From a virus, in the IMG/VR virus record IMGVR_UViG_3300020163_000369, positions 1-24,984 of that record: a DNA stretch of 24,984 nt. One strand, 5' to 3'. This document shows, in pieces, positions 3,738 through 21,440 of the stretch (positions within the stretch are counted from its first letter, which is position 1; each line of letters starts with the position of its first letter). The position numbers and the translations under genes are program-made. The notes beneath the pieces were generated by a model. The model saw only the letters and a program-made list of their open reading frames with translations. It did no database searches and had not been told where the DNA came from.

Positions 3738-4241
3738 ATGAACACGATCCGCGAGCTGATCATCCTTGAATTGCTGGCCAGGGCAGCCGTCATCCGGACG
3801 ACTGGATCCCCGCAGGCCTATGCGACGGATATCGGCGAGACGGTATTGCGGGCCCGCCTGAAGGTTGATCCCGACGAACTTCCCTGCACGGTCGTCTGGC
3901 CACAGCCGGAAACAGCGGAAAACTCCAACGGCATGGTCAGACACAGAATGCCGGTCCGGATCGAGGGGATCTCCCTTTTCGCCGCCGAGAGTCCCTCCAT
4001 CGTCTCCGAACGTATCCTGGGCGACCTGATCAAGTGCTTCACCTCGCCCGCCTGGGATCGCCGGCGGATCGTCGCGAGTCCTGCCTCTCCGGTCACATAC
4101 CTCCAGCCTTACGCGGAGTCCATCATCTACCAGGGCGGCGGGACAGACACCTACCCGGACGATGGATCAGTCGCGGTCGGCGCATCGGCCACCTTCCTCG
4201 TCAGCTATTGGACAGCGATTGGAGACCCATATAGCCAATGA
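3738..4241 (+). CDS. Tail terminator-like protein (lambda gpU analogue)
   Basis: A 167 aa protein placed directly after the Z-like gene, where lambda-type phages encode the tail terminator (gpU or a functional analogue) that stops tail-tube growth at the correct length. The N-terminal helix (MNTIRELIILELLARAAVI), followed by a beta-rich part and a 'GGGTDTYPDDGSVAVGASAT' loop then a strand, is compatible with terminator proteins. Sequence similarity to gpU itself is weak, so the call depends mainly on gene order and size. The start at 3738 is preceded by an AGGAACGGG site. The stop is in ATGA overlap with the next gene. Confidence 0.55.
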   Translation: MNTIRELIILELLARAAVIRTTGSPQAYATDIGETVLRARLKVDPDELPCTVVWPQPETAENSNGMVRHRMPVRIEGISLFAAESPSIVSERILGDLIKCFTSPAWDRRRIVASPASPVTYLQPYAESIIYQGGGTDTYPDDGSVAVGASATFLVSYWTAIGDPYSQ

Positions 4242-4756
4242 AAACGAACGTCCTGATCATATCCGGCGCTGCGCCCTGTGTCATCGACGACATGAACGCC
4301 GCCGCATCTTCGATGCTCAGGGAATTCGACTACATGGCCATCGGCCTGGACGCCGTTGACAAGTATCCGCAGCATATCAAATACATGGCGACTTACCACC
4401 CGGTGGAGATCCCCGAGATCAAGGCCCGCCGCGAATCCATCGGCGGCAACACCGATTATCAGGTCATATCCCATGTCGGGCAGGCGGGTGTGAACATCAT
4501 CGAGCCCCTTCTTCCTGGCGAACGCTCCGGATCTTCGGCGCTGCTCGGGACCCTGGCGGCGATCAAGCTGGGATACACCCGGATAATCCTTTGCGGATGC
4601 CCCCTGACCGGAAAGAATGACAAGAACACCGCTTATGAGAGTTTCCGCGTCGGCTGGGAGCAGAAAAAGGACTTCTTGGCGGATCGCGTCCGCTCGATGT
4701 CAGGATGGACCCGAGACCTGCTCGGCGCACCGACGGAGGAATGGCTAAATGGCTAA
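4238..4756 (+). CDS. Rossmann-type putative glycosyltransferase (GT42 sialyltransferase/DUF115-like), paralogue 1
   Basis: The 172 aa sequence has an N-terminal beta strand and glycine loop (NVLIISGAAP, residues 4-13) and a conserved C-terminal block (SGSSALLGTLAAIKLGYTRI, then ILCGCPLTG). This layout is shared with CstII-type GT42 sialyltransferases and DUF115/Maf-type proteins, which use sugar nucleotides. The family call is from pattern only and no catalytic His could be confirmed. The gene is clearly paralogous to the one at 8158. Conservation is strongest in the C-terminal half (SGWT, EWLN endings), and a 24-nt stretch is identical at DNA level (4333-4356 versus 8283-8306). It overlaps the tail terminator-like gene by ATGA, so it is co-translated with structural genes. 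A role in modifying virion or host glycans is inferred. Confidence 0.6.
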   Translation: MKTNVLIISGAAPCVIDDMNAAASSMLREFDYMAIGLDAVDKYPQHIKYMATYHPVEIPEIKARRESIGGNTDYQVISHVGQAGVNIIEPLLPGERSGSSALLGTLAAIKLGYTRIILCGCPLTGKNDKNTAYESFRVGWEQKKDFLADRVRSMSGWTRDLLGAPTEEWLNG

Positions 4757-4779
4757 ACTATCAACAGGAGGAATTTACC

Positions 4780-5205
4780 ATGTCAATGGATAATAAGACT
4801 GAAAACGACGCGTTGCTTATGTTTTTGAAAGGAACCGATCCTGCATACCGGACTGATGCGACGCAGTATATCGCCCTGCTCACGGGTGCGGGCGCGCCAA
4901 GCGAAGCCACGCCGATAGCGACCGAATGCACCTATACGGGATATGCTCGCGTCCCGATAACAAAAGCAAGCGGATGGGACGACAACGGATCTTCGTTCAC
5001 CAATCTCGGAACTTTAACATTCGGAGCGCGGTCTGATGACGGGGCAACCCAAACGGCTTATTGGTTCGCAGTCGTGGATACGGGTCCTGTGAAGGCAACC
5101 GCTGTCAATATGTGCATAATCGGGGAGCTTTCAACTCCTTTGGCAATCAGCCAAAAAATTCAACCTATCTTCGCGATAGGAGACCTTGAAGTGACGGCGG
5201 ATTAA
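4780..5205 (+). CDS. Phage tail-fibre-type structural protein (141 aa)
   Basis: A 141 aa beta-rich protein. Its layout of N-terminal helix, 'QYIALLTGAG' strand, 'ECTYTGYARVPIT' segment, 'LTFGARSDDGATQTAYWFAVVD' and C-terminal strands matches a recurring family of small phage proteins usually annotated as tail fibre proteins. In that family the YIAL...GYAR...WGIFDA pattern is diagnostic. I chose ATG 4780 because CAGGAGG lies 8-9 bases upstream. A frame open from 4705 would overlap the preceding gene and has no such site. The protein probably forms or decorates a virion fibre. It precedes three further probable structural genes, so this stretch looks like an accessory virion module. Confidence 0.62.
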   Translation: MSMDNKTENDALLMFLKGTDPAYRTDATQYIALLTGAGAPSEATPIATECTYTGYARVPITKASGWDDNGSSFTNLGTLTFGARSDDGATQTAYWFAVVDTGPVKATAVNMCIIGELSTPLAISQKIQPIFAIGDLEVTAD

Positions 5206-5207
5206 GA

Positions 5208-6128
5208 ATGGAAGGATTCAAGAGCATAAGGGAATGGGTTGATTCCACCTCCGAAGGCAAGTGCGACATCTTCCAGTTTCGCAAGATGGCAGGTGGTGCG
5301 ACTATTGCCGGTCAATGGGCAGACTATACCTATGCTTCCGGAAGGCCCGTTTCAAACTTCTACGCCACGGCCCCGCTCGCAAGTGCGCTTATTGGCGACG
5401 ACAAAGGCATTTATGTCGGGGAGAACGTCTTTCCCTTAAAGAAGTATATCCATCGCCTTACTACGATGATGGGCGCAGGCGCAACCGTAACCACCTGTCA
5501 AAACGTCCAGTTGCTTCTTTGCGATTTCCTTCTCTCTTATCCCTTTACCGATATGGATGCAGGGGGTGAGGATCAGGACATGAACGTGGGCGTTGCATCG
5601 CCGGTAACTTTACCAAACCGGTACGGAAACAGCATCGGCGTTAAGATGATGCTTGTTGCGCAGGGGCAGACTATCGGCGGCGGCACGTTTACCATAACTT
5701 ACACCAATTCGGACGGAACCCCGGGCAGGGTTACCCCGCTGCATTATTGTGCAGCCGCGCAACCGGCAGGATCGCTGGTTCAGTCAAGGGTTGCCGCTGC
5801 GGGAGTCAACCCCTTTATCACGCTACAAGCGGGAGACAAAGGGGTGCAGAGTGTACAGCGCATCAAATATGCGTTGGCAAACGGTGGAATCGCCGCGATT
5901 GTTCTTGTCAAACCTTTGCGGAATCATATCCAGATGGAGGAATGCCGGACAACGACTACGAGTACCCTGTATTCCGTAGGCTCACCCTCTGAAACAGAAA
6001 TGATTACAAGCGGAATGAATTTAACCGAAATAGTGGACGGTGCGGTGCTCGGCTTCATCGGTCAGACGATGGCGGGTTCGATAGCCAGTTCACAGTTGGT
6101 TGGGACGATAGAAACGATCTGGAGGTAA
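5208..6128 (+). CDS. Probable virion structural protein, tandem paralogue A (306 aa)
   Basis: No characterised family is recognised, but the protein is clearly related to the next one (6132). Shared landmarks in the same order include the N-terminal amphipathic segment, 'AGQWADYTYASGRPVSNFYA', 'NVQLLLCD', 'LPNRYGNSIGVKMMLVAQ', 'FTITYTNSDGTPGR', a Cys near 'HYCAAA', 'LQAGDKGVQSVQ', 'VLVKPL' and 'EIVDGAVLGFI'. It is beta-rich, with no membrane segment or signal. Similar ~300 aa proteins occur in other phages, normally annotated as hypothetical next to tail-fibre-type genes. A role as a capsid or tail appendage is inferred. There are only two bases between the previous stop and this ATG, and the ribosome site is weak, which suggests translational coupling. 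Confidence 0.65.
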   Translation: MEGFKSIREWVDSTSEGKCDIFQFRKMAGGATIAGQWADYTYASGRPVSNFYATAPLASALIGDDKGIYVGENVFPLKKYIHRLTTMMGAGATVTTCQNVQLLLCDFLLSYPFTDMDAGGEDQDMNVGVASPVTLPNRYGNSIGVKMMLVAQGQTIGGGTFTITYTNSDGTPGRVTPLHYCAAAQPAGSLVQSRVAAAGVNPFITLQAGDKGVQSVQRIKYALANGGIAAIVLVKPLRNHIQMEECRTTTTSTLYSVGSPSETEMITSGMNLTEIVDGAVLGFIGQTMAGSIASSQLVGTIETIWR

Positions 6129-6131
6129 GCC

Positions 6132-7028
6132 ATGGGTTTTACATCAATGGACGACCTGCTCGCCAAAATCTCGGCGGGGCAGATAGGTAGAATAGATTAC
6201 GGGAAGACAACAACCCCCGCGCAGGTTGCCGGGTATTGGAGCAATGTGGGCCGCTGGGACGGAATGCCGATCATGAGCGCCTACGCAGGGGCATCAAAGA
6301 CCTTTGTGCCGACGGACAACACCTCTGACGGAGCACCGTATACAGGGGAGTCTGTGGGCGGTTCGCCCATTAAGACGAAGCATATCATCAATGCCTCCGC
6401 CAATTTATTTGCAGCCGCAGGCGCACCATGGATTCTCATGTGCTGCGATCAGATCGGCTATGTGCCGTTGGCCGAGGCGGATATTGAGTCAACGACAGAG
6501 CGCACGATCACCATGACGGCGCTTGATTCAACTTGCCGTTACCCGGCAGGCGTTGGGCTGAGGGCTTTTTTCTCGACATACACGGCCCCCCTCACAGGCG
6601 GCCCCAACATGACATCATTCAAGTACAAGAACGTGGCTGGGGATTCACATGAGGTCACGAAAACAATCAATATGTGCGCCACGCCGGTTGCCGGTCAGGT
6701 TCCTCATTCCGGCAATGCTGCCAACAGATTCGCTCCGTTCATCCCCTTACTCGCAGGCGATACGGGAATATCGGATATTGAGGCTTTTACGTGGACCGGT
6801 GGGACGACTTATACAGGCGCAGGCGCGATGATACTTCACCTTGTCAAACCGATATTCACGCTTCCCCTTCCTGCAAACGGAATCATGACCGAGAGGGACT
6901 TTGTCAATCAGCTACCTTCTTTGCCGCGAATCGTAGATGGGGCGCATCTGATGTTCATGCTTTTTCAGACAGGAGCAACGACAACCACAAGCCCACTTTA
7001 CATCACGATGGATTACGCTTGGGAGTAA
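6132..7028 (+). CDS. Probable virion structural protein, tandem paralogue B (298 aa)
   Basis: Second member of the tandem pair. It shares with the gene at 5208 an 'AGYWSNVGRWDGMPIMSAYA' N-terminal block, an 'LMCCDQIGY' strand, 'TCRYPAGVGLRAFFSTY', 'SFKYKNVAGDSHEVTK', a Cys in 'NMCATPV', 'LLAGDTGISDIEAF', 'HLVKPIF' and 'PRIVDGAHLMFMLF'. The MTERDFVNQLPSLPRIVDGA block near the C-terminus is a hallmark of this phage protein type. It is beta-rich, without a signal or membrane segment. A good GGAGG site at 6120-6124 precedes the ATG, so it can be translated at its own level. The two copies have diverged considerably, so the duplication is not recent. It may form hetero-oligomers with paralogue A. 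Confidence 0.65.
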   Translation: MGFTSMDDLLAKISAGQIGRIDYGKTTTPAQVAGYWSNVGRWDGMPIMSAYAGASKTFVPTDNTSDGAPYTGESVGGSPIKTKHIINASANLFAAAGAPWILMCCDQIGYVPLAEADIESTTERTITMTALDSTCRYPAGVGLRAFFSTYTAPLTGGPNMTSFKYKNVAGDSHEVTKTINMCATPVAGQVPHSGNAANRFAPFIPLLAGDTGISDIEAFTWTGGTTYTGAGAMILHLVKPIFTLPLPANGIMTERDFVNQLPSLPRIVDGAHLMFMLFQTGATTTTSPLYITMDYAWE

Positions 7029-7031
7029 TTG

Positions 7032-7985
7032 ATGCTTTTGAGTAACCGCGCATATGCAGGGTCGAATCCGGGAAAACTTTATTCCTTCACGAATGCGGTA
7101 ACTACGGATTGGGCGCTCTATACCAACAAGAACAACTGGTGCAAGGCCGGGATGCTACGGAACTTCCATTGCGGGGATGCGGTTGTGTCGGGATTAACCG
7201 ACAGGGCCTCGCAACCGGCGGGGAATACGCATCCCGTGGCCTATGTCCTCGCGCAGAAACCCGGAAGAATATCAAGCCACGCTCTTGCCGTTGTCAGTTT
7301 ATCAGGGGAAGGAAGCGCGGCAAAGGGTTCTCTGGTCTTTACCAAGTCATGCGCCATAGGCCTTGCCGGTTCGGCCACAGGAACGCTGATTGTCGGCTCT
7401 CTGATAGACGGCAGCGCGGCAATTATCATTGATGGTTCGGCAATCGGAGCGATGACGCTTGGCGGTGCAGGAAGCGCGATTATTACCGTGTCATCGAACG
7501 GATCAATTCTCGGTCATGTACCCGCGAGGGGCGCGGCGTCGATTGAACTCGGTGCGGTTGTAAATGCCACAGCTGTCGGATGGCTTATCGGGAACGCACC
7601 CATTACGCTTGACGGCACCCTTGCGAGTTACGCCGTCGGCTGGTTGGCAGGTTCCACGGAAGACAGAAGCGTGTTGACCGCGAAGGCCGTGGCAGAGGCC
7701 GTATGGAGCGAACTTCTCTCGGCTTACGATGACTCCGGAATGGCGGGCAAATATCTCCGGGAACTTGGCGCCGGTGCAGACCCATGGGCCTCTGAGATCG
7801 AAGGAGATCATACGGCGCAAGACATTCTCCGATATTTGCTGTCTTTTATCGGCGGCAAGGCAACGGGCGGAGGGACGGCAAATCCCGTCTTCCGAAGCAC
7901 CGGCGATGTCAAGGACCGGATCAGCATGACCGTTGATGAGAATGGAAACCGTACTCAGGTGATCTTGGATGGGGACGATGAATGA
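7032..7985 (+). CDS. Gly/Ala-rich repeat structural protein with conserved phage C-terminal module (317 aa)
   Basis: Three parts are visible. The N-terminal ~75 residues form a small domain with 'DWALYTNKNNWCKAGMLRN'. Residues ~85-210 are a low-complexity Gly/Ala/Ser-rich stretch with imperfect repeats of roughly 17-20 residues alternating small and hydrophobic residues (for example 'VGWLIGNAPITLDG' and 'VGWLAGS'), which suggests stacked beta strands of a fibre. The C-terminal ~100 residues carry 'AEAVWSELL', 'TAQDILRYLLSFIGGKATGG' and 'DVKDRISMTVDENGNRTQVI'. That module recurs at the end of many phage virion proteins. I prefer ATG 7032 (GGGAG upstream) to the TTG at 7029. It is probably an elongated appendage protein; the exact role is unknown. 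Confidence 0.6.
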   Translation: MLLSNRAYAGSNPGKLYSFTNAVTTDWALYTNKNNWCKAGMLRNFHCGDAVVSGLTDRASQPAGNTHPVAYVLAQKPGRISSHALAVVSLSGEGSAAKGSLVFTKSCAIGLAGSATGTLIVGSLIDGSAAIIIDGSAIGAMTLGGAGSAIITVSSNGSILGHVPARGAASIELGAVVNATAVGWLIGNAPITLDGTLASYAVGWLAGSTEDRSVLTAKAVAEAVWSELLSAYDDSGMAGKYLRELGAGADPWASEIEGDHTAQDILRYLLSFIGGKATGGGTANPVFRSTGDVKDRISMTVDENGNRTQVILDGDDE

Positions 7986-8148
7986 GAAAGCATCCGTCAG
8001 CACCGTTTTCGACATTGCCGAAGGCGGCAATCCCGGAATGGTCCCTCCCCGGATGGGCGATCTTATCCATAGCGCCGGTCGTTACAGCGACGCAACGAGC
8101 CCCGGCGAGGACAAAAGTAGAACATTTAATAGAACCGATCAGGGTTAA
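7978..8148 (+). CDS. Small hypothetical protein (56 aa)
   Basis: The frame from ATG 7978 to TAA 8146-8148 encodes MNEKASVSTVFDIAEGGNPG and a further 36 mixed, soluble-looking residues. It overlaps the end of the preceding gene by 8 nt and is followed after 9 nt by the ATG at 8158. I prefer it to the competing 69 aa frame (7982-8191), which overlaps both neighbours. Its residues and codons look more like the neighbouring genes, and its TAA lies inside the TAAGAGG site of the next gene. The competing frame has an odd basic, Pro-rich composition, but it does have ATGA-type junctions at both ends, so it cannot be excluded. Confidence 0.45.
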   Translation: MNEKASVSTVFDIAEGGNPGMVPPRMGDLIHSAGRYSDATSPGEDKSRTFNRTDQG

Positions 8149-8157
8149 GAGGCCACA

Positions 8158-8703
8158 ATGGAACGCGAGCTTTGCACGGAGAATGAAATGAAAGATGACT
8201 TGATCGCCGTTGTCGGCTCCGCGCCCAATGCCCTCCTTGATCTTTACAGCCTCATTGAGAGCACCGGGAGATTCTGCGACATCATGGCCATCGGCCTGGA
8301 CGCCGTGCGGATGATCACCGGCGCGCCGCGTTATGTCGCTACGAATCATATCGAGGACATACCGGAAATAAGCCACATTCTCTCAGGAAAACAGGCAGAC
8401 ACGATGATTATCTCCTACAAGCAAGCGCCGGGTGTGGACATCGTTGAGCCTTACGCTCCGATCATTGAAAGATCGGGGTCGTCATCCATGACGGGAACCC
8501 TTGCCGCCATCCGGCTTGGTTACAAGAAGATCGTTTTGTGCGGCATCCCCCTGACCGGCAACGCTCCTGAAGGCAATCCTTATGAAGCCTTTCGCCTGGG
8601 ATGGGAAGACAAGAAAGATGAGCTGACCGGCAAGGTTAAATCCCTGTCCGGCTGGACAAAGGAACTGCTCGGAAATCCGACGTGGGAGTGGTTGAATGAA
8701 TAG
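8158..8703 (+). CDS. Rossmann-type putative glycosyltransferase (GT42 sialyltransferase/DUF115-like), paralogue 2
   Basis: Second copy of the family at 4238. Visible features are the N-terminal strand and loop 'LIAVVGSAPN', 'DIMAIGLDAV', then 'RSGSSSMTGTLAAIRLGYKK', 'IVLCGIPLTGN', 'PYEAFRLGWEDKK' and the C-terminal 'LSGWTKELLGNPTWEWLNE'. The SG...LGYKKIVLCGI...PYEAF block strongly recalls the CstII/GT42 pattern. The assignment to a sugar-nucleotide-using enzyme is by resemblance and by the four sugar-modification genes that follow in overlap. ATG 8158 has a TAAGAGG site. ATG 8188, 30 bases later, aligns with the start of paralogue 1 and has a GGAG site, so the N-terminal ten residues are uncertain. 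The stop overlaps the next start. Confidence 0.62.
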   Translation: MERELCTENEMKDDLIAVVGSAPNALLDLYSLIESTGRFCDIMAIGLDAVRMITGAPRYVATNHIEDIPEISHILSGKQADTMIISYKQAPGVDIVEPYAPIIERSGSSSMTGTLAAIRLGYKKIVLCGIPLTGNAPEGNPYEAFRLGWEDKKDELTGKVKSLSGWTKELLGNPTWEWLNE

Positions 8704-9394
8704 GACGATCACAATCGGCGCGTGCTGGGATGGAAGGGATTTTTACAGCGCGGAATATGTCAACCGGCTTTATCGCGCCTGCCTGCGTAACACGACCATT
8801 CCGTTTGATTTCGTCCTGTATATCGGTCCGTCCGCTGAAGGCCGGAGGCACGAGATCGATCCGGCGATACGGATAGTCCAGACCGGCCTTCCTTACTGGT
8901 GGTCAGGGTTCATGTTCTGGAAGAATGACCCCCCCGGCATAAACACGGAAACCGTTCTTTACCTCGATCTTGACCAGGTCATCGTGGGCGGCCTTGACGA
9001 TCTGATCAATTTCCCCTCGGAGCAGGCATACATGACCGGCTACCCGAGACACGCCTGCCCTCCCGGGATGGAGCGCCTCACTTGCGTAAGCACCTCGTTA
9101 TTGCGCAACGGCGCGGGGCGAAAGGTGTGGGATGAATACGTGGCATTGGGCAAGCCTCAATGGGACCCGTGGAATCCTCCGACGGGACGCCTCCTGCCGA
9201 TAGGTTGCCAGAGCATCATCGACGATCCTGCCCACGGGATGAAATACGACCTTTTTCCCGAGGAGTGGGTTGCCTCGTATAAATTGCAGATCCTCAAGAA
9301 GGGTATGCCGCATGATTGCCGCGTGGTCGCGTTTCATGGCCGCCCGAAACAGCATGAGGTTCCGGACGATTTCGTGAAGGAGCACTGGATATGA
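8696..9394 (+). CDS. Glycosyltransferase, GT-A fold with DxD motif
   Basis: A 232 aa protein with the organisation of small GT-A glycosyltransferases: an N-terminal strand (TITIGACWDG), an acceptor-side segment 'GLPYWWSGFMFWKNDP', the metal/nucleotide-binding 'VLYLDLDQVIVGGLDDL' (DLD at residues 91-93), and C-terminal 'CRVVAFHGRPKQHEV'. This FHG-x-PK ending is typical of these enzymes in phages and Proteobacteria. It is expected to transfer a sugar from a nucleotide donor, using Mn or Mg at the DLD. Donor and acceptor cannot be read from the sequence. It overlaps the genes on both sides, so it belongs to a single translation-coupled sugar cassette. Confidence 0.82.
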   Translation: MNRTITIGACWDGRDFYSAEYVNRLYRACLRNTTIPFDFVLYIGPSAEGRRHEIDPAIRIVQTGLPYWWSGFMFWKNDPPGINTETVLYLDLDQVIVGGLDDLINFPSEQAYMTGYPRHACPPGMERLTCVSTSLLRNGAGRKVWDEYVALGKPQWDPWNPPTGRLLPIGCQSIIDDPAHGMKYDLFPEEWVASYKLQILKKGMPHDCRVVAFHGRPKQHEVPDDFVKEHWI

Positions 9395-10731
9395 GCGAAC
9401 GGCTTCCATTCAACCGGCGCGGGCTTGATGTGACCATTTACCCACAGGCGAAGATTATCCAGCCGGAGCGGATCTCCATCGGGAATCATGTCATCATCGA
9501 TGATTTCTGCTTTATCGTCGGCGGACAGAAAACGGAGATCGGCGATTATGTCCACCTCGCCTCCTATGTTTCCCATACCGGCGCGGGCGAACTCACCATC
9601 AGTGATTTCTGCCAGGTCGCGCAAGGCACTTGTTTCCTCACCGGGACGGACGATTTCACGGGAGTTTGGGGCGGCATCCCCAGCCCGACGATTCCCCCGA
9701 AATACCGGTTCCCGAAGCGGTCGTTTATCATGATGGAGAAACACGCCATGATCGGGCAGGGGTCAAGAATAATGCCCGGCGTAACCCTCGGTGAAGGCTG
9801 CGCGATAGGGTCTATGTCCCTCGTGTTGAAGGACATGCCGCCCTGGACGATCTGCACGGGAATCCCCGCGAAACCGATCAGGGAAAGAAAGAGGGATCTC
9901 GTGTTGAAGTGTGAGGAAGGATTGAGGAAAGACAACGAAAGGCCGCTGGTTTCTATATGCTGCCTGACCTACAATCAGGAGAAGTTCATCCGGCAAACGC
10001 TGGACGGCTTCCTGATGCAGAAAACGTCCTTTGACTTTGAAGTCCTGGTGCATGACGACGCCTCGACAGACGGCACGCAGGCGATCCTCCGCGAATACGA
10101 GCAGCGTCATCCCGGCATCGTCAAACTGATCATTCAGCCGGTGAACCTCTATTCCAAGACCGGGATCTATCCCATCATGAACCTGTACCGGGCCGCCAAG
10201 GGAAAATATATCGCGGAATGCGACGGCGACGACTACTGGACAGATCCCCGCAAACTGCAAAGGCAGGCCGATTTTCTGGAAGCAAACCCGGATTACGCCA
10301 TGTGCCACCACGATTATCAGATTTTCCAGGACGGCGTTTTCAAGGAACCGTCAAAGGGCGATGCACCGAAAGATTTTACTGCCCTGGAGCTGATCGGCTA
10401 CACGGGCGCCGGTTATGGGATCGGCGTTATGACCAGGATGTTCCGCAACCGTTACAGCGCGGAGACAGCGGCGGACATCGAAGCCATGGTGGGTGATTAC
10501 CCCACGATCGTTTATATGGGCACCGTCGGCAAATGCAAGTTTATCGAAGGAGTGGCCCCCTCCGTATATCGTCGGAAACACGGAACGAATTCATGGTGCA
10601 GCCTGCCTCCGAATGAAATGGCCAGGCGCACGGCGGAAATGCACAAGCGCATTTATGACTGGTTTCTGAAAAGAGGGAGCCACCGGAATATCGAGATTCG
10701 GAAGGGGTTCGTGGAGGTCAAATGTCGATAG
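9391..10731 (+). CDS. Bifunctional fusion: hexapeptide-repeat acetyltransferase plus GT2 glycosyltransferase (446 aa)
   Basis: Two enzymes are joined. Residues ~15-165 form a left-handed beta-helix acyltransferase: repeated hexapeptide turns such as 'RISIGNHVIIDD', 'TEIGDYVHLASYV', 'LTISDFCQVAQG', 'AMIGQGSRIMPGVTLGEG' and the closing 'IPAKPIRERKRD'. His62 in 'YVSHTG' is a possible catalytic histidine. Residues ~185-445 form a GT2 glycosyltransferase: 'PLVSICCLTYNQEKFIRQTL', the nucleotide-binding 'VLVHDDASTDGT' (DDAS at 222-225), 'AAKGKYIAECDGDDYWTDP' (DGD at 278-280) and 'KLQRQADFLE'. Such enzymes acetylate sugars and transfer sugar residues; the substrate is unknown. No stop codon or frameshift separates the parts, so the fusion looks genuine. 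It is in ATGA overlap with the previous gene and overlaps the next by 10 nt. Confidence 0.85.
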   Translation: MSERLPFNRRGLDVTIYPQAKIIQPERISIGNHVIIDDFCFIVGGQKTEIGDYVHLASYVSHTGAGELTISDFCQVAQGTCFLTGTDDFTGVWGGIPSPTIPPKYRFPKRSFIMMEKHAMIGQGSRIMPGVTLGEGCAIGSMSLVLKDMPPWTICTGIPAKPIRERKRDLVLKCEEGLRKDNERPLVSICCLTYNQEKFIRQTLDGFLMQKTSFDFEVLVHDDASTDGTQAILREYEQRHPGIVKLIIQPVNLYSKTGIYPIMNLYRAAKGKYIAECDGDDYWTDPRKLQRQADFLEANPDYAMCHHDYQIFQDGVFKEPSKGDAPKDFTALELIGYTGAGYGIGVMTRMFRNRYSAETAADIEAMVGDYPTIVYMGTVGKCKFIEGVAPSVYRRKHGTNSWCSLPPNEMARRTAEMHKRIYDWFLKRGSHRNIEIRKGFVEVKCR

Positions 10732-11360
10732 GAGTGCATCGCATCACCGCCGAGTTTGAGCAGGCCCTGGCCGATTACACCGGCGCCAAGTACGCCGTAG
10801 CCGTGGACAATCAGAGCAACGCCCTGTTCCTGGCCCTCAAATATGAAGGGATCGAAGGAAAGGAAATTCTGATCCCTTCCCGGACATATCCCTCGGTTCC
10901 CTGCGAGATCATCCATGCCGGCGGAAAAGTAAAGTTCGTCCCCTGGCCGGGCAGCACCCTGAAAGGTGCCTATCCACTGAAAGGGTCCCGCACCTGGGAC
11001 AGCGCCCTGAGATTCACAACGGGAATGTATTTGCCGGGGATGTTCATGTGCCTGAGTTTTACCGGACCCTACAAGCACCTGAAACTTAGCAAGGGCGGCG
11101 CGATCCTGACGGACGACCACACGGCTTATCTCTGGTTCAAGCGTGCCAGGTTCTCCGGCCGGCGCGAGTGCAGCTATCACGACGATCATTTTGATCAGAT
11201 CGGCTGGAATTTCTACATGATGCCCGAAATCGCGGCGCGGGGCCTGTTGATGATGTCGCAATTCTACAACATGGACGGCACGCCGAAACACAACGAGGAC
11301 CTGGAAGTCCCTTATCCGGACCTGAGCAAGTTTGAAATCTACGCACGGGAGGCGGCATGA
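10722..11360 (+). CDS. Compact DegT/DnrJ/EryC1/StrS-type sugar aminotransferase homologue (212 aa)
   Basis: The order of motifs follows PLP-dependent sugar aminotransferases: 'EFEQALADYTGAKYAVAVDN' followed by 'SNALFLAL' (N-terminal cofactor region), 'ILIPSRTYPSVPCEII', 'TWDSALRF' (Asp93, the position of the conserved pyridine-binding Asp), 'LSFTGPYKHLKLSKGGAILT' with the candidate Schiff-base lysine at 118 or 121, and 'DQIGWNFYMMPEIAARGLL'. Full-length members have ~370 aa. Here ~50 residues are missing between the 'VKFV' strand and Asp93, and most of the C-terminal domain is absent. There is no sign of a frameshift, and both ends overlap real neighbours, so this is a shortened form rather than decay. 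It would aminate a keto-sugar if active; a non-catalytic role is possible. Confidence 0.7.
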   Translation: MSIGVHRITAEFEQALADYTGAKYAVAVDNQSNALFLALKYEGIEGKEILIPSRTYPSVPCEIIHAGGKVKFVPWPGSTLKGAYPLKGSRTWDSALRFTTGMYLPGMFMCLSFTGPYKHLKLSKGGAILTDDHTAYLWFKRARFSGRRECSYHDDHFDQIGWNFYMMPEIAARGLLMMSQFYNMDGTPKHNEDLEVPYPDLSKFEIYAREAA

Positions 11361-11926
11361 CAACACCCGCAACATACAACGAAATATGGGAGAAAGGCTT
11401 TTACCGGGAGGGGTCGTGCTCAAAGCGCATGATTCCCACGATGCTCAATTACATCCCATCCGGCAGCACGATCAACGATTATGGATCGGGAACGGGCAGA
11501 GCAGAGGTTGACATGATGGCGCTGAACAAGGGCTTCAAGATCAACATGGTGGACTTTGCGGACGTGGCGCTGGAGCCGGAAGCCCGCGCCTTGATCGGCC
11601 CGAATCTGACCTACACCATCGCCCCCCTCGAAGCCTTGCCGGAAGATTTTCCCGTAGCCGATTGGGGTATTTGCATCGGCGTCCTTATGGTTGTGGACCC
11701 TGCGAAATTGTCCGTCATCCTGTCGGAAATAAGACGGACATGCCGGAATCTGTTTGTGGAAGTTTATGACACGCCCGATGTCAGGCTCGGAGAAGACCGA
11801 ACCCTGATCAAAGGCGACGCGGCATGGTGGGCCAATAAGCTGCGAGAACATTGGCCTTATGTAGAATCGGTAAGAAGTCCGGAGCACCCGCGCCGGTACA
11901 TAACAATTTGTAAATCACAGCAATAA
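11357..11926 (+). CDS. SAM-dependent methyltransferase (class I, small)
   Basis: A 189 aa class I methyltransferase. Motif I is 'TINDYGSGTGRAEV' (around residues 38-51), the acidic end of the next strand is 'INMVDFAD' (Asp66), and 'ADWGICIGVLMVV' plays the part of motif IV. The N-terminal 'YNEIWEKGFYREG' is a common cap in phage-type methyltransferases near glycosyltransferase genes. Position at the end of the sugar cassette, in ATGA overlap with the aminotransferase-like gene, suggests O- or N-methylation of a sugar. Nucleic acid as substrate is less likely, because no target-recognition domain is present. The next gene has its own AAGGAGG site 12 nt downstream, which marks the cassette's end. 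Confidence 0.8.
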   Translation: MTTPATYNEIWEKGFYREGSCSKRMIPTMLNYIPSGSTINDYGSGTGRAEVDMMALNKGFKINMVDFADVALEPEARALIGPNLTYTIAPLEALPEDFPVADWGICIGVLMVVDPAKLSVILSEIRRTCRNLFVEVYDTPDVRLGEDRTLIKGDAAWWANKLREHWPYVESVRSPEHPRRYITICKSQQ

Positions 11927-11938
11927 GGAGGAATAATC

Positions 11939-12973
11939 ATGTCAACAGCGGAAAATGCAAAAATTCAGTACGAATCTGGACAGGACCTTGTGGCTTTTGT
12001 GGCCCTGACCGATCAGGGCGATCACAAGGATTTCCGGGGCTTGGATGCTTTATGGTCGAACCGGTCCGGATACGAACCAGATGTGAAGCCCAACGGCCTG
12101 GCAACGGGCGGCGCCGTGGGAGTTGCTGTAAGCGGAAGCCAGAACGTGGTTGATGTCGCGGCCCTGACCGCTTATCTGGCGGGGATTCTCACTCCCGTAG
12201 GCGCGGGCGCGGATACGGCCATCGTGCGTCCTACTGGCGGTTCGCCGCTGAACAGCCATAACAAATCATCCATCACGATCACCGGCGCCGGGGCCATTGC
12301 CGTCGTCAAGGGTACGGACGGGACATCCCATTCGACCACTCGCGGCGCGGCAGGCGGACCCGCCTACATTCCCCTGGACAGCATCGAGATCGCTCAGGTG
12401 TGGCTGACCTCTGCATCGGCAGGCGTCATCACGGCGGACGAGATCAAGCAGGTTGTCGGCACCCACTGTGAACGATACGACTATCCGACCTGGGAAGAAA
12501 ACAGGTTCAACGTCGAAGCCGGGATCATCGGAAACGCCGGGATCGAGTTCTCCTCGGCTCTGCCCCTGATCCATTCGGCAACCTCTCCCGTTGTCGGCGT
12601 GGCCAAGGCGGTTTATGCGCAGTATTACGAGCCCGCCTTCACGGACATCACCAAAAGCTCCGATTTCGTGCCCCCGGAAACCACTTACTCGGTCAGCTCG
12701 AAGCAGATCTACGGCACAACCCTCGGCTCGTCCTCGGCATCCCTGAATCAGGGTTCTTTCACGGCCTACCTCCAGGATGGAATCTCTGACGGCCTGTTGT
12801 CCCTGAAGGGAGCGAACCTGTTCTTCAAGTTCCTCCAGAACCGGCTGAACAGCACCCCGTATATTCTGACCCAGGGTATCTTCGGCGTGTCGCGTCAGTT
12901 CCCGGCGTCCGATCAGATTGTGGCCACCTGCACGATCTCCTCTGAAGCGGCGGCAGTGGAAGTCATCGGCTAA
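11939..12973 (+). CDS. Major tail tube protein (siphophage type)
   Basis: A 344 aa protein with strong AAGGAGG initiation, placed directly before the G/GT frameshift chaperones and the tape measure. This is the position of the major tail protein (lambda V) in long-tailed phages. The sequence is beta-rich, with an N-terminal 'YESGQDLVAFVALTDQG', a Gly/Ala/Ser-rich part around residues 85-140 that could form an added surface domain, and a C-terminal half (residues ~180-344) with 'YDYPTWEENRFNVEAGIIGN' and 'GSFTAYLQDG'. It is longer than lambda V (246 aa), mainly through inserted Gly/Ser-rich segments. The assignment is by position and general character; the alternative is a sheath, but no second tube gene or baseplate set is present. 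Confidence 0.68.
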   Translation: MSTAENAKIQYESGQDLVAFVALTDQGDHKDFRGLDALWSNRSGYEPDVKPNGLATGGAVGVAVSGSQNVVDVAALTAYLAGILTPVGAGADTAIVRPTGGSPLNSHNKSSITITGAGAIAVVKGTDGTSHSTTRGAAGGPAYIPLDSIEIAQVWLTSASAGVITADEIKQVVGTHCERYDYPTWEENRFNVEAGIIGNAGIEFSSALPLIHSATSPVVGVAKAVYAQYYEPAFTDITKSSDFVPPETTYSVSSKQIYGTTLGSSSASLNQGSFTAYLQDGISDGLLSLKGANLFFKFLQNRLNSTPYILTQGIFGVSRQFPASDQIVATCTISSEAAAVEVIG

Positions 12974-13616: not shown

Positions 13617-14423
13617 ATGGCTGACCCTGAAAAGAAATGCTCTACCTGCAAGAAAAGTAAGCCGCTGGCAGAGTATAACAAAAGAAGCCGCTCAAAAGAT
13701 GGCCACGATGATTTGTGCAGAGCATGTGCATCAGACCAGCATCGGCGCGAATATCAGCGAAACAGAGAGACGATAAAAAATAAAGCCGCGCGATATTACG
13801 CAGATAATAAAAAGAAGTGCAATGTGCGGAGCATTGAATATTACCGTAAAACTCAGCCGCTTAAGCCGCAAACTGTATGCGCTTGTGGCTGCGGAGAAAT
13901 GGCGGCTCCAGGAAGGGCGTTTATAGTAGGGCACAAAAACAAGGGGCGGCAATGGAGCGAGGAGATTAGGGAAAAAATGTCCGAAAGCCGTAAACTTGCA
14001 GTAACGACCGAATACCGTCTCATGGTCAGCGATAGATTCCGTGGCCGGATACAATCGCAAGATGAACGGGCAAGGAGATTAAAGACGAAACAACGTGGAG
14101 AATCCCATCACGCATGGAACGGCGGTTCTTCGTTTGAGACTTATGGTCGCGACTGGAACAGGTCAACAAGGAAAATCGTTTTTGAGAGGGATAGTGGTAA
14201 ATGCCAGAATCCCGGCTGTTTGGAAAAATGCAAGCGTCTTAATGTCCATCATATTGATTATGATAAAAAAAACAGCCAATTAGACAATCTGATCACCTTA
14301 TGTACTTCGTGTCATGCGGCTACAAATTCTAACAGGGGGAAATGGGAGCCGTTCTATGCCGAGGTTATGAGAAATAAAATCATGCTTATTGCTAATGTTG
14401 TGAGGATTGCCAATGTGTGCTGA
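13617..14423 (+). CDS. HNH homing endonuclease with zinc finger and NUMOD3-like motif
   Basis: Free-standing endonuclease gene inserted between the chaperone and tape measure genes. Visible parts: an N-terminal zinc finger (Cys8, Cys11, Cys34, Cys37), a second Cys cluster 'CACGCGEMAAPGRAFIVGHK', a NUMOD3-type DNA-contact motif 'GRQWSEEIREKMSESRK', and a C-terminal HNH domain with zinc cysteines 196, 201, 229 and 232 around 'VHHIDY' (His211-His212), Asn224 and His233. Its base composition (more A/T, AGA and ATA codons) is unlike its neighbours, a sign of transfer. ATG 13617 directly follows the GT stop, and its own TGA lies 8 bases inside the tape measure gene. It probably cuts a related phage lacking the insert at this junction. 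Confidence 0.88.
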   Translation: MADPEKKCSTCKKSKPLAEYNKRSRSKDGHDDLCRACASDQHRREYQRNRETIKNKAARYYADNKKKCNVRSIEYYRKTQPLKPQTVCACGCGEMAAPGRAFIVGHKNKGRQWSEEIREKMSESRKLAVTTEYRLMVSDRFRGRIQSQDERARRLKTKQRGESHHAWNGGSSFETYGRDWNRSTRKIVFERDSGKCQNPGCLEKCKRLNVHHIDYDKKNSQLDNLITLCTSCHAATNSNRGKWEPFYAEVMRNKIMLIANVVRIANVC

Positions 14424-18000: not shown

Positions 18001-19212
18001 ATGACTGTTACGGTAAAACCACTTGCGCGATCTTTGCGGGAATGGTCGCTCCCTCCCGACATTGAGAACGTCATCCCCCTGCAGTGGGACTCATCAGTAT
18101 TTGAGTCCCGCCCGAGGAGCATAACCAATCCGGTACTCGAGCAGGGCGGTCAATCGCTTGGAAGTTTTTTCGCATACTGCTCGCGCATCGACTTGGATTA
18201 CAAATGTGACGTTGAAGAACCTGACTATGGCGAAACGGCGTTGATAATGCTTGCTATCCCTGAAGGTGGCGATATGGGCGACGCAGTCTTCGTTATCGGA
18301 TGTTACGTTCAGGCCGATTGGACGCATATCAGCCAGGACTTGGCGCTTGGTAACTGGTTCTTTATGTTCGGTGTTATGCGTGGGTCTAGTGCGGGAACCA
18401 TCCAGGGATGGATAGATAATGTCGAAATAACCCCCTCGCTCCAGATTACCCCGTTTATGGCGGGGCCGCATACTCAGCAAGTAACGTATGGCGCTTTGCT
18501 GCTTACACCCGAAGTCCCTTTATGGTCAGAGGGCAGTTTTATCCCCCATGGTGAACTTTCATTAACAGGAAGTGTCCCGAATTTCGGGACCCCGTGTGCG
18601 GATATTCCTTGCGGAGCGCTGATCCTTACCGTCCGTAATCCGGCTGCCGTATGGTCTGTTCCCCTGCCAATGATGGTTGGTTCAAAGGTCATCTATAGCC
18701 TAACTTTAACGGGTGCACCGGATGGCATTGATGATCTGACTATCCCCATGTCCTCTTTCCAATCCGTCGTCCGGAGCGGGGAACCATCCTATCTGGCGTG
18801 TGTAGTGCCGAACTCGGTCGATTGGGTCGATGAAATTATCGCCCGACCGAACGGGGATCTGATCATTAAAAAAGGATACCTGCTTTATGACGGAACCCAG
18901 CAGATGGAGGAAATTATCCGGGTAAATTACGAAACGCTCCAGATTGATCGTGGGGCCGCTAATGATTCCGCGACACTCGTGGGGCATAAGACCACAACCG
19001 CGACCGCCCCGAAGGACTGGACGGTTGACGGGGTAACTTTCTATGGCCTCCAGGCGGACGGGAAACGAAGAATCCGCGCAGCGATGGACCTGTTCCTGCG
19101 ACCCGCCGACACGGTATATTACGGCAGCGGGCTGACAGACAATTTCATCGTGGGGTCAATCACCTATATCATTGATTCCAGATCGGCCTATATGGAGGTG
19201 ACGGAAGCATAA
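18001..19212 (+). CDS. Tail tip/minor tail protein (403 aa)
   Basis: Two parts are visible. Residues 1-~245 are a beta-rich region with no recognised domain, starting 'VKPLARSLREWSLPPDIENV'. Residues ~250-403 hold a recurring phage tail-tip domain with 'PSYLACVVPNSVDWVDEIIA', 'LIIKKGYLLYDGTQQMEEII', 'NYETLQIDRGAANDSATLVG', 'GKRRIRAAMDLFLRPADTVY' and a final 'AYMEVTEA'. That C-terminal region is commonly found near the tip of phage tails. I chose ATG 18001 because AGGA (17992-17995) precedes it. The earlier ATG 17959 is inside the preceding gene and has no good site. It is in TAATG overlap with the 742 aa gene, so the two are translationally coupled and may act together at the tip. The exact identity is unknown. 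Confidence 0.62.
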   Translation: MTVTVKPLARSLREWSLPPDIENVIPLQWDSSVFESRPRSITNPVLEQGGQSLGSFFAYCSRIDLDYKCDVEEPDYGETALIMLAIPEGGDMGDAVFVIGCYVQADWTHISQDLALGNWFFMFGVMRGSSAGTIQGWIDNVEITPSLQITPFMAGPHTQQVTYGALLLTPEVPLWSEGSFIPHGELSLTGSVPNFGTPCADIPCGALILTVRNPAAVWSVPLPMMVGSKVIYSLTLTGAPDGIDDLTIPMSSFQSVVRSGEPSYLACVVPNSVDWVDEIIARPNGDLIIKKGYLLYDGTQQMEEIIRVNYETLQIDRGAANDSATLVGHKTTTATAPKDWTVDGVTFYGLQADGKRRIRAAMDLFLRPADTVYYGSGLTDNFIVGSITYIIDSRSAYMEVTEA

Positions 19213-21440
19213 TGGGAGCGGCAACGATAGTTTCAGGAGGGCCGACCGGTCTGTATAGCATCCTGCTCGTTCAAGAGACGACGAAGGCCACGGCTCGCCT
19301 GAAGGTTATAAAGGACCTCATAGACGGCACGAACGGGAATCCGCTCCATAGCCCTCCGATCCTTGCAACCAATGGCCTCACAACGGCGATCATCGCCGCG
19401 ACGGGCGCCTTGACCGTAGCCGAAGTCGCGTTGTCAACTGCCTCTGCGTTGCTTGAGGACGCTATTGAACAATCCAATACGCCAATTCCTTCCCTCGAAG
19501 CCGTCCCACGGTGGTATAATGTTGGGAAGGGAACGTGCACCAAAGTAAGTCCGGGGCCTTCATGTCAGGCCGGCAATTATTCCATTACCTTCGGCGCGTT
19601 CATCGCCGGGGATTATGGTACAAGCCCGGTAATCCCTGATAGCACCGGGTTCACGGTGAGTTCTCCGACGGGCAGCCTTCCCGTTGCCAAACTCGGCTCC
19701 TATGTATCATCCGGGATAAACTTTACAACCACGGAAGGCGACCCCGCGTTTTCTTCCGGAGATTCCTTCGACATAATTGTTACCGACGAGAGTAAAGTTG
19801 TCGCTACACCAACGACGGAAGCGATGAAAGCGGTTTATGCCGCACAGACCGACCTGATCGTGAAGCGCCGGGCGCTGGCCACCCTCAGACTGGAAAAGGC
19901 CTCGCTCGAAAAAGAGCAGGCGCTCATCACGAAGGCTCTCCTGCCCGTTACCCGCACAGGAATATGGTGTGCAGACCTGACCGAAGATATGGCAGCGGGA
20001 AAGGCAGTCGGAACAATCGAGATTAACGGTGAAGAAGCCTCAATGAACATCATGCCCGGCGGCAAGGTGGGCCTCGGGAAGCTGGAACCGGTGCTGTCAA
20101 GCACACCAGCAGGGGTGTTTGTGAATATGGCAACCCTTCCCTGCTGGCAGAAATGGAAGCCGACGTATCGTGTTGGCGAGATTAAGGTAATGGGTCCGGT
20201 CGCCGGCCAGTGCAGCGTTTGTCTTGACGAGGCGTTTAGCGCCGCGCAGGGATTAAAGATAAATCAGGACGGCACTTTATGCTCTCAGGCCCTTGCACCG
20301 GACATTGTTTCCGGGTTTGCGGACTTCTGCCGGACGAACCCGAGTGACCCTCTCGTGTCCAACACGGCAGACTCCAAGATAACCAGTTCGGCGCAACTGC
20401 TCGCGGATCTTGCGGCAGTAAATAAAGCCGTCAATAGCAGCTACACATACAAGAAGGACGTTGATCAGTACGGCACGCTGGAAAAGTGGAACTATATGGA
20501 GCCCGGCGCGTCCGGAGATTGTGAGGACTTTGCACTCACTAAGGCGAGAATGCTCTTGGCAAAGGGTTATCCGGCGAGCGCCATTAAGATAGAAGTCGGT
20601 AAAACGTCCACCGGCGCGGGTCATGCGTGGTTGACCGTCCAGACGGATAAGGGCGACCTCAGCCTTGACCTCAATTACTCCGAAGTCATGCCCGCCGGGA
20701 TGCTAAACTACACAAGCAGATACCGACAGACAGGGTGTTCCTGGAGCCGCCAGGGAGTCCTGCTGTCCAATGTCCCTATCGATTATATGGATGGGTCAAA
20801 CGAGAACGCCTTTGAGGTAGGCGACCGCGTTATTGTGTCCTTTACCGGACAGGTATGGGCAGTCCCGAAGGTTATCGGATTCGAGAGCCACCCACGCTTA
20901 GGATTGGGATTGTATATCAACCAGACGGGATTTCATAATCAACTTGTCATGGGGAAATATACGGTTTCCGGGGTTGTCAAGGACGCCGCCTTCTTGAACA
21001 TATCCGATTGGTGGGGATTCCCTTATTCTATTTTTGAGGGTGACATCTACCTGCCAAGAGAAATGAAGGAAGGGGAAGGGACTCCGTGGCAGGATTGCTT
21101 ATTGGTACGCGTATATAATCTAAAAACAAAGGTGCTTAAGCGCACCATTCCTCTGCATTTTTTCCACATTCCCGCTTTTGTAGGCGATAATGCGGCGATG
21201 TTTAGATTTTCATCGTCCCCGCTTGGCGGTGGCGGCGTGGGTGCTATAACGCATAGCGTCACCGGTACGTTGTATGTCCCCTGCACATGGTACACATTCC
21301 AGGTGGGATATTTTGCATGGATAAGAACAGGGGTTTATGCCTTCAACCATTTGACCGGGTCGGATATGGGATCTTATCAACATACCGGATGTCGCTACGG
21401 CCTCCCCGGCGGCGGGCAACCCGGACCGATTCAGCAATGA
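19212..21440 (+). CDS. Tail tip protein with LapG-like (BTLCP) transglutaminase-fold cysteine peptidase domain (742 aa)
   Basis: Multi-domain virion protein. Residues 1-~100: helical N-terminus. ~105-195: beta domain recognisably the same as the insert of the decoration protein at 405 ('GTCTKVS', 'GFTVSSPTGSLPVAKLGSYV', 'SGINF', 'FSSGDSFDIIV'). ~205-245: coiled coil. ~400-500: a bacterial transglutaminase-like cysteine peptidase (BTLCP, PF06035-type, LapG family) with the triad visible as Cys437 in 'GASGDCEDFALTKARML', His471 in 'GHAWLTVQ' and Asp486 in 'SLDLNYSEV'. ~500-742: unrecognised beta-rich C-terminus. LapG cleaves a surface adhesin, so in a tail this domain might open adhesin, peptidoglycan or protein barriers during adsorption, which is inference. 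The start is in TAATG overlap with the previous gene. Confidence 0.72.
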   Translation: MGAATIVSGGPTGLYSILLVQETTKATARLKVIKDLIDGTNGNPLHSPPILATNGLTTAIIAATGALTVAEVALSTASALLEDAIEQSNTPIPSLEAVPRWYNVGKGTCTKVSPGPSCQAGNYSITFGAFIAGDYGTSPVIPDSTGFTVSSPTGSLPVAKLGSYVSSGINFTTTEGDPAFSSGDSFDIIVTDESKVVATPTTEAMKAVYAAQTDLIVKRRALATLRLEKASLEKEQALITKALLPVTRTGIWCADLTEDMAAGKAVGTIEINGEEASMNIMPGGKVGLGKLEPVLSSTPAGVFVNMATLPCWQKWKPTYRVGEIKVMGPVAGQCSVCLDEAFSAAQGLKINQDGTLCSQALAPDIVSGFADFCRTNPSDPLVSNTADSKITSSAQLLADLAAVNKAVNSSYTYKKDVDQYGTLEKWNYMEPGASGDCEDFALTKARMLLAKGYPASAIKIEVGKTSTGAGHAWLTVQTDKGDLSLDLNYSEVMPAGMLNYTSRYRQTGCSWSRQGVLLSNVPIDYMDGSNENAFEVGDRVIVSFTGQVWAVPKVIGFESHPRLGLGLYINQTGFHNQLVMGKYTVSGVVKDAAFLNISDWWGFPYSIFEGDIYLPREMKEGEGTPWQDCLLVRVYNLKTKVLKRTIPLHFFHIPAFVGDNAAMFRFSSSPLGGGGVGAITHSVTGTLYVPCTWYTFQVGYFAWIRTGVYAFNHLTGSDMGSYQHTGCRYGLPGGGQPGPIQQ

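Follow-up and report, generated by a model that had tools for sequence, protein, structure and literature searches.

A sugar-enzyme cassette at an exchange site in a phage tail operon, with a probable role in virion glycosylation

Why does a run of sugar enzymes interrupt the structural genes of a phage, and what would carry the sugar that they make? The question is raised by the stretch of DNA analysed here (the window), a whole 24,984-base IMG/VR virus record and hence a genome fragment. An earlier interpretation made from the letters alone (the sequence-only reading) had claimed five coupled frames at 8158–11926. All five are present on the plus strand: 8158–8703 (181 residues; its start may be at 8188), 8696–9394 (232), 9391–10731 (446), 10722–11360 (212), and 11357–11926 (189), successive frames overlapping by 8, 4, 10, and 4 nt. 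As had also been proposed, they lie inside the structural operon, between genes in the tail-terminator and major-tail-protein positions, among co-oriented tail genes with short gaps; the flanks encode head decoration, major capsid, neck1, tape measure, and other proteins. The names of the two flanking genes, 3738 and 11939, are given by synteny, the family matched by the latter (phrog_30644) having no assigned function. Promoter and terminator scans of the window gave internal hits at about chance level, so that no internal transcription boundary can be claimed, and an Rfam scan of it found no RNA. The cargo does not begin at 8158, as had been assumed. The gene at 4238 is a 49%-identical paralogue of 8158, so the sugar cargo really starts there, and its full extent, 4238–11926, includes a block of fibre-like genes. 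The sequence-only reading had described neither this paralogue nor the exchange-site nature of the locus, nor had it seen how highly conserved the minimal aminotransferase is. The features are, from left to right:

3738–4241, plus strand: left flank, tail-terminator-position gene (placed after the neck1 gene, phrog_27; a homologue lies directly before the major tail protein gene in relatives with an empty site)
4238–4756, plus strand: first copy of the DUF115/GT42-like transferase, at the cargo border (next gene after the terminator in almost every locus with both)
4780–5205, plus strand: protein like gp80 (fibre I of phage GP4), in the fibre block inserted here (Pfam Gp80, 1.5e-12)
5208–6128, plus strand: beta-rich structural-type protein, without a family match, paralogue of 6132 (24% identity, E 9e-12)
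6132–7028, plus strand: beta-rich structural-type protein, paralogue of 5208 by similarity
7029–7985, plus strand: fibre-like protein (C-terminal 58 residues in common with a protein of phage ctUtU524, 52% over 58 aa)
8158–8703, plus strand: DUF115/GT42-like transferase, copy 2 (AF2 model, pLDDT 91)
8696–9394, plus strand: GT8-like DxD glycosyltransferase (phrog_1962, 2e-13; DLD at residues 91–93)
9391–9930, plus strand: left-handed beta-helix acyltransferase domain, AntD-like
9931–10731, plus strand: GT2 glycosyltransferase domain (Pfam GT2, 2e-21; chondroitin synthase, 8e-17)
10722–11360, plus strand: minimal DegT-type aminotransferase homologue, mini-DegT (DegT profile, family alignment, predicted fold, purifying selection)
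11357–11926, plus strand: putative SAM-dependent methyltransferase (Methyltransf_25, 2e-4, below the cut-off)
11939–12973, plus strand: right flank, major-tail-protein-position gene (phrog_30644, 8e-89; with the tail-chaperone-position gene and then the tape measure downstream; right breakpoint in swaps)

The place between the terminator and the tail gene is an exchange site for cargo. Where the 11939 protein has relatives, the two genes are either separated by no more than 12–370 bp (empty) or enclose 0.5–8.3 kb of cargo. On a tail-protein tree of 57 non-redundant relatives, 33 sites are empty, 20 hold sugar cargo, three hold fibre-type cargo (with collagen repeats in two of the three), and one holds a lysozyme gene, these proportions being biased because the DUF115 gene served as the bait for some of the sugar-type loci. 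At least six changes of site state are needed on this tree. The loci L048 and L098 are 88–92% identical on both sides of the site and share nothing inside it, where their sugar sets are completely different; one breakpoint is the 3′ end of the DUF115 gene, and the other lies 13 bp upstream of the tail-gene ATG. L122/L130 and L102/L104 show comparable swaps, whose right edge lies at the tail gene. In L099, the closest relative of the window, the site is empty (gap of 38 bp), and the major tail and major capsid proteins are 79% and 80% identical to those of the window. The sequence-only reading held that absence of the block from a close relative with the same virion would refute a role on the particle. 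Taken literally, L099 is such a case, its virion proteins being similar; what its empty site shows is that the block is dispensable and exchangeable, which does not amount to showing that the block leaves virions unmodified. The expectation that the block would recur next to the same structural genes was borne out in other contigs, which keep its order. This shared order, together with the strong purifying selection on the fourth gene described below, indicates that the cassette is not a chance assembly. Most of the genomes compared are metagenomic fragments without known hosts, and when the DNA of the whole cassette was compared with annotated phages, two partial matches were the only result.

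An exchange site could also be no more than a place where a strongly expressed operon tolerates insertions, holding cargo unrelated to the tail, with enzymes that modify, for example, DNA or small molecules. Such a site would account for the fibre and lysozyme/holin-like cargo found there, as well as for a second cargo region that the window and L094 have ahead of the tape measure, but it would not explain why sugar genes fill 20 of the 24 occupied sites (some of them fetched through a sugar gene itself) or why the same border gene recurs, and the window holds no DNA-modification genes; we regard this explanation as improbable. In the window, this second spot holds an HNH endonuclease gene (13617–14423) of low GC3 (0.46), with the tail-chaperone-position gene on one side and the tape measure on the other; relatives such as L094 have other extra genes there.

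The border gene is the constant element of the site. Of the 29 loci in the DUF115 scan that show both genes, 28 have a gene of this type immediately behind the terminator gene, some of these loci being the same contig retrieved twice; the cargo of L232 consists of this gene alone. Taken alone, 8158 has no family match by sequence; three of the 22 members of its family have a weak MptE-like/DUF115 match (best 0.002), and a PDB sequence search with the DUF115 profile gave no useful match. The AF2 model of 8158 has a GT42/Maf/DUF115-type fold, close to the CstI/II sialyltransferases (Z 11–11.7) and the Maf glycosyltransferase (Z 11.6 over 163 of 171 residues), and also to archaeal HPPK/MptE. Family and predicted structure thus agree with the earlier guess of a sialyltransferase/DUF115-like protein. 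The likeness of 8158 and 4238 to the Cst sialyltransferases (GT42), the Maf flagellin glycosyltransferase, and MptE (DUF115), with Z about 11–12 over ~160 of 171 residues, is one of predicted fold, whereas sequence identity is 14–17% and the phage proteins are smaller. In L048 and L194, the DUF115 gene is followed by a CMP-Kdo synthetase homologue (CTP_transf_3, 5e-50; KdsB, 6e-54), a neighbour that fits the CMP-sugar transferase fold predicted for the border gene and gives indirect support to a putative CMP-sugar donor. A second DUF115 copy, of the copy-2 type, is fused to a GT8-like enzyme in L045 and L048. Between DUF115 copies there are short stretches of nearly the same DNA (in the window, 30 nt at 93% identity; in L048, 54 nt at 89%), at which recombination could take place. 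When identity was compared segment by segment, the single L002 gene leaned toward a recombinant of the two window copies, without being clear-cut. In L194, a 103-nt direct repeat (2608–2710 and 3886–3988, 96%) with an inner inverted repeat encloses the terminator gene together with the DUF115 gene, a short way upstream of the CMP-Kdo synthetase gene, and is possibly a small mobile or recombination element. The DUF115 model also matched a 684-residue frame with B12-binding and radical SAM domains in L207 (5989–8043).

Within the interior, the gene at 10722 encodes the mini-DegT protein. It matches PF01041 (DegT/DnrJ/EryC1/StrS) at 62.3 bits, against a cut-off of 19.8, and has 212 residues versus ~370 (about 360–380) in the DegT family, with ~36 middle residues and the C-terminal domain of the full-length enzymes missing. 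Relatives were found in 483 stretches of viral contigs, the best 80 of the 483 at 73–84% identity; nearly all members have 208–215 residues (median 209). At ~75% identity, the protein appears to be shared by hundreds of phage contigs that are unrelated in other respects. The same search in 84,980 prokaryote genomes gave eight matches, all in MAG contigs, of which one is a regular DegT of full length. K118, the PLP lysine, and the aspartate D93 are invariant in all 50 aligned members and align with the Lys and Asp of this full-length protein. The median dN/dS of ~0.08 (pairs with finite dS) is a rough figure, dS being near saturation, and places the gene under strong purifying selection. In sequence, the nearest relative is GDP-perosamine synthase, which is also among the closest folds to the model (pLDDT 87), with other sugar aminotransferases (Z ~18). 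Residues 148–161, conserved and of low confidence in the monomer model, may fold at a dimer interface. With the full-length architecture missing, the protein is classed as a derived homologue and not as a standard DegT member, and its activity could have been lost or changed together with the C-terminal domain. A library of viral structures held no close match of the same small size, and a literature search found no description of such a protein.

Annotated carriers of mini-DegT include the Flavobacterium phage immuto and a huge phage of 595 kb that is itself unannotated, with a 30% relative in a Synechococcus phage, and in annotated loci the gene lies within a sugar island. Its largest cluster of neighbours is present in 42 of 59 loci, the commonest neighbour families being hexapeptide domains (37 of 141 neighbours) and PglD (16), and in L034 a dTDP-glucose 4,6-dehydratase, above the cut-off, is three genes away. 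These neighbours match the usual order from keto to amino to acylamino sugar. L013 and L031 carry a second, diverged mini-DegT (44% identity) at gene +4 of the same island. If the assignment is right, mini-DegT would represent a sugar aminotransferase of unusually small size that abounds in environmental phages, and it could serve as a marker of phage sugar islands.

Of the families named earlier for the remaining genes, the glycosyltransferase and the Hexapep/GT2 fusion, like DegT, were recovered by profile; the methyltransferase match is weak. The 9391 frame joins an N-terminal Hexapep acyltransferase to a Glycos_transf_2 domain. Similarity to AntD extends across the whole acyltransferase domain (residues 5–172, E 4e-33, PDB 3vbi–3vbp, entries deposited as "galactoside O-acetyltransferase" which we take to be AntD structures). 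The supposed acetyltransferase is accordingly kept as an acyltransferase, whose nearest relative is a sugar N-acyltransferase rather than an O-acetyltransferase. The Asp–Asp pair of the AntD active site is retained, and the serine that differs between 3vbi and 3vbk, being altered in 3vbk, is alanine here. Searches of the PDB by sequence with 8696 and with the methyltransferase gave no useful match. The 11357-type methyltransferase family also occurs in relatives without mini-DegT (L101, L102, and L104). Beside cargo methyltransferases there recurs a protein or domain of ~147 residues with a DG(H/K)NR..(I/L)AA(M/L)G motif (L098:9473–9916, L104:8413–8847, L094:7193–7702, and L101:6715–7677), ParB/SerK-like by eye and without a match in PHROGs and Pfam, which also gave nothing for several other cargo proteins of relatives.

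Sugar-pathway homology thus covers all five genes of 8158–11926, and it supports the earlier suggestion that the set could aminate, acylate, transfer, and methylate a sugar. We favor, with a probability of roughly 0.6, an exchangeable glycan cassette at a fixed site of the tail operon that makes a sugar and attaches it to the virion. On the best reading of the genes, the product would be an N-acylated, probably O-methylated 4-amino-6-deoxy sugar on a virion protein. In the order of reactions that we infer, the host would supply a 4-keto-6-deoxy nucleotide sugar, mini-DegT would aminate it, and the AntD-like domain would N-acylate the amino sugar; the GT8-like, GT2, and two Cst/Maf-like transferases would then build a short glycan on a co-produced virion protein, and the methyltransferase would O-methylate it. 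By swapping the interior and keeping the border transferase and the tail genes, phages would change the glycan and leave the particle unchanged, most likely as a means of masking or altering the virion surface. More tentatively, the locus might be a serotype-like variable glycan locus for the phage's own particle, in which the constant border CMP-sugar (perhaps Kdo) transferase adds the first sugar to a virion protein, the swappable interior varies the outer sugars, and a virus-specific minimal PLP family works without its C-terminal domain.

The enzymes resemble those of O-antigen and capsule synthesis, and elsewhere mini-DegT lies in large sugar islands of phages and not in structural operons. 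The cassette might thus modify the surface glycan of the host late in infection, bringing about superinfection exclusion or keeping new virions from adhering to debris, and host lipid-linked glycans are among the targets of soluble glycosyltransferases. A membrane segment is missing from every cassette protein, however (maximum Kyte–Doolittle value of 1.96, against 2.48 for a spanin control), and the block holds neither a flippase nor a polyprenyl-phosphate transferase. These absences, the position in the late structural operon, and an exchange tied to tail genes across the whole phage group make host-surface modification rather unlikely. The phage serotype-conversion genes gtr and oac likewise change surface sugars, but they differ from the cassette, which has no membrane-bound flippase or transferase and is placed among late structural genes.

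Virion glycosylation is a closer parallel. Phage Corndog carries glycosyltransferase and methyltransferase genes among its structural genes (PMC4351075), and glycans are reported on the capsid and tail tube of some mycobacteriophages (Freeman et al. 2023, as cited in PMC12619734 and PMC13313380). Cassettes of this kind are therefore known. The present one resembles the actinobacteriophage sets in having genes for glycosyltransferases and a methyltransferase among structural genes, but it lies between the tail terminator and the major tail protein instead of between portal and protease, includes an aminotransferase and an N-acyltransferase, and is exchanged between close relatives. As in PglE/PglD and the anthrose operon (antA–D; PMC10050317), a DegT-type aminotransferase stands beside a beta-helix sugar N-acyltransferase; here, in contrast, the aminotransferase has ~210 residues, the acyltransferase has a GT2 domain fused to it, and both are phage-borne. 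As far as the literature searched shows, the terminator/tail-protein exchange site, the constant border transferase, and the mini-DegT family are new. If virion modification is correct, phages would vary the sugar of their own particles as bacteria vary O-antigens, by cassette swaps at one site of the tail operon, and the near-identical L048 and L098, with their different cassettes, would make the role of virion sugars directly testable.

As for the acceptor, the sequence-only reading pointed to the fibre-like proteins of 4780–7985, which do lie inside the same cargo and adjoin the cassette in this phage. L002, L045, L083, and L096 have the same cassette and no homologue of these proteins, which are thus unlikely to be the only acceptor, and their codon composition differs from that of the sugar genes (GC3 of 0.53 in the 4780 gene, against 0.64–0.76 in the sugar genes and most structural genes), which suggests a separate insertion. 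A specific role of the fibre block as acceptor is very doubtful. The glycan would probably be carried by a protein common to all carriers of the cassette; the most likely candidates are in the tail, such as the tail protein, or among other surface proteins that these phages share. Some domains are common to head and tail proteins: the head decoration protein (405–1088) and a 742-residue tail-region protein (19212–21440) have a stretch of ~89 residues in common (36% identity), and in L002, L046, and L096 a head-region protein has a domain of ~79 residues matching, at 68–80%, the C-terminal end of the window protein 21995.
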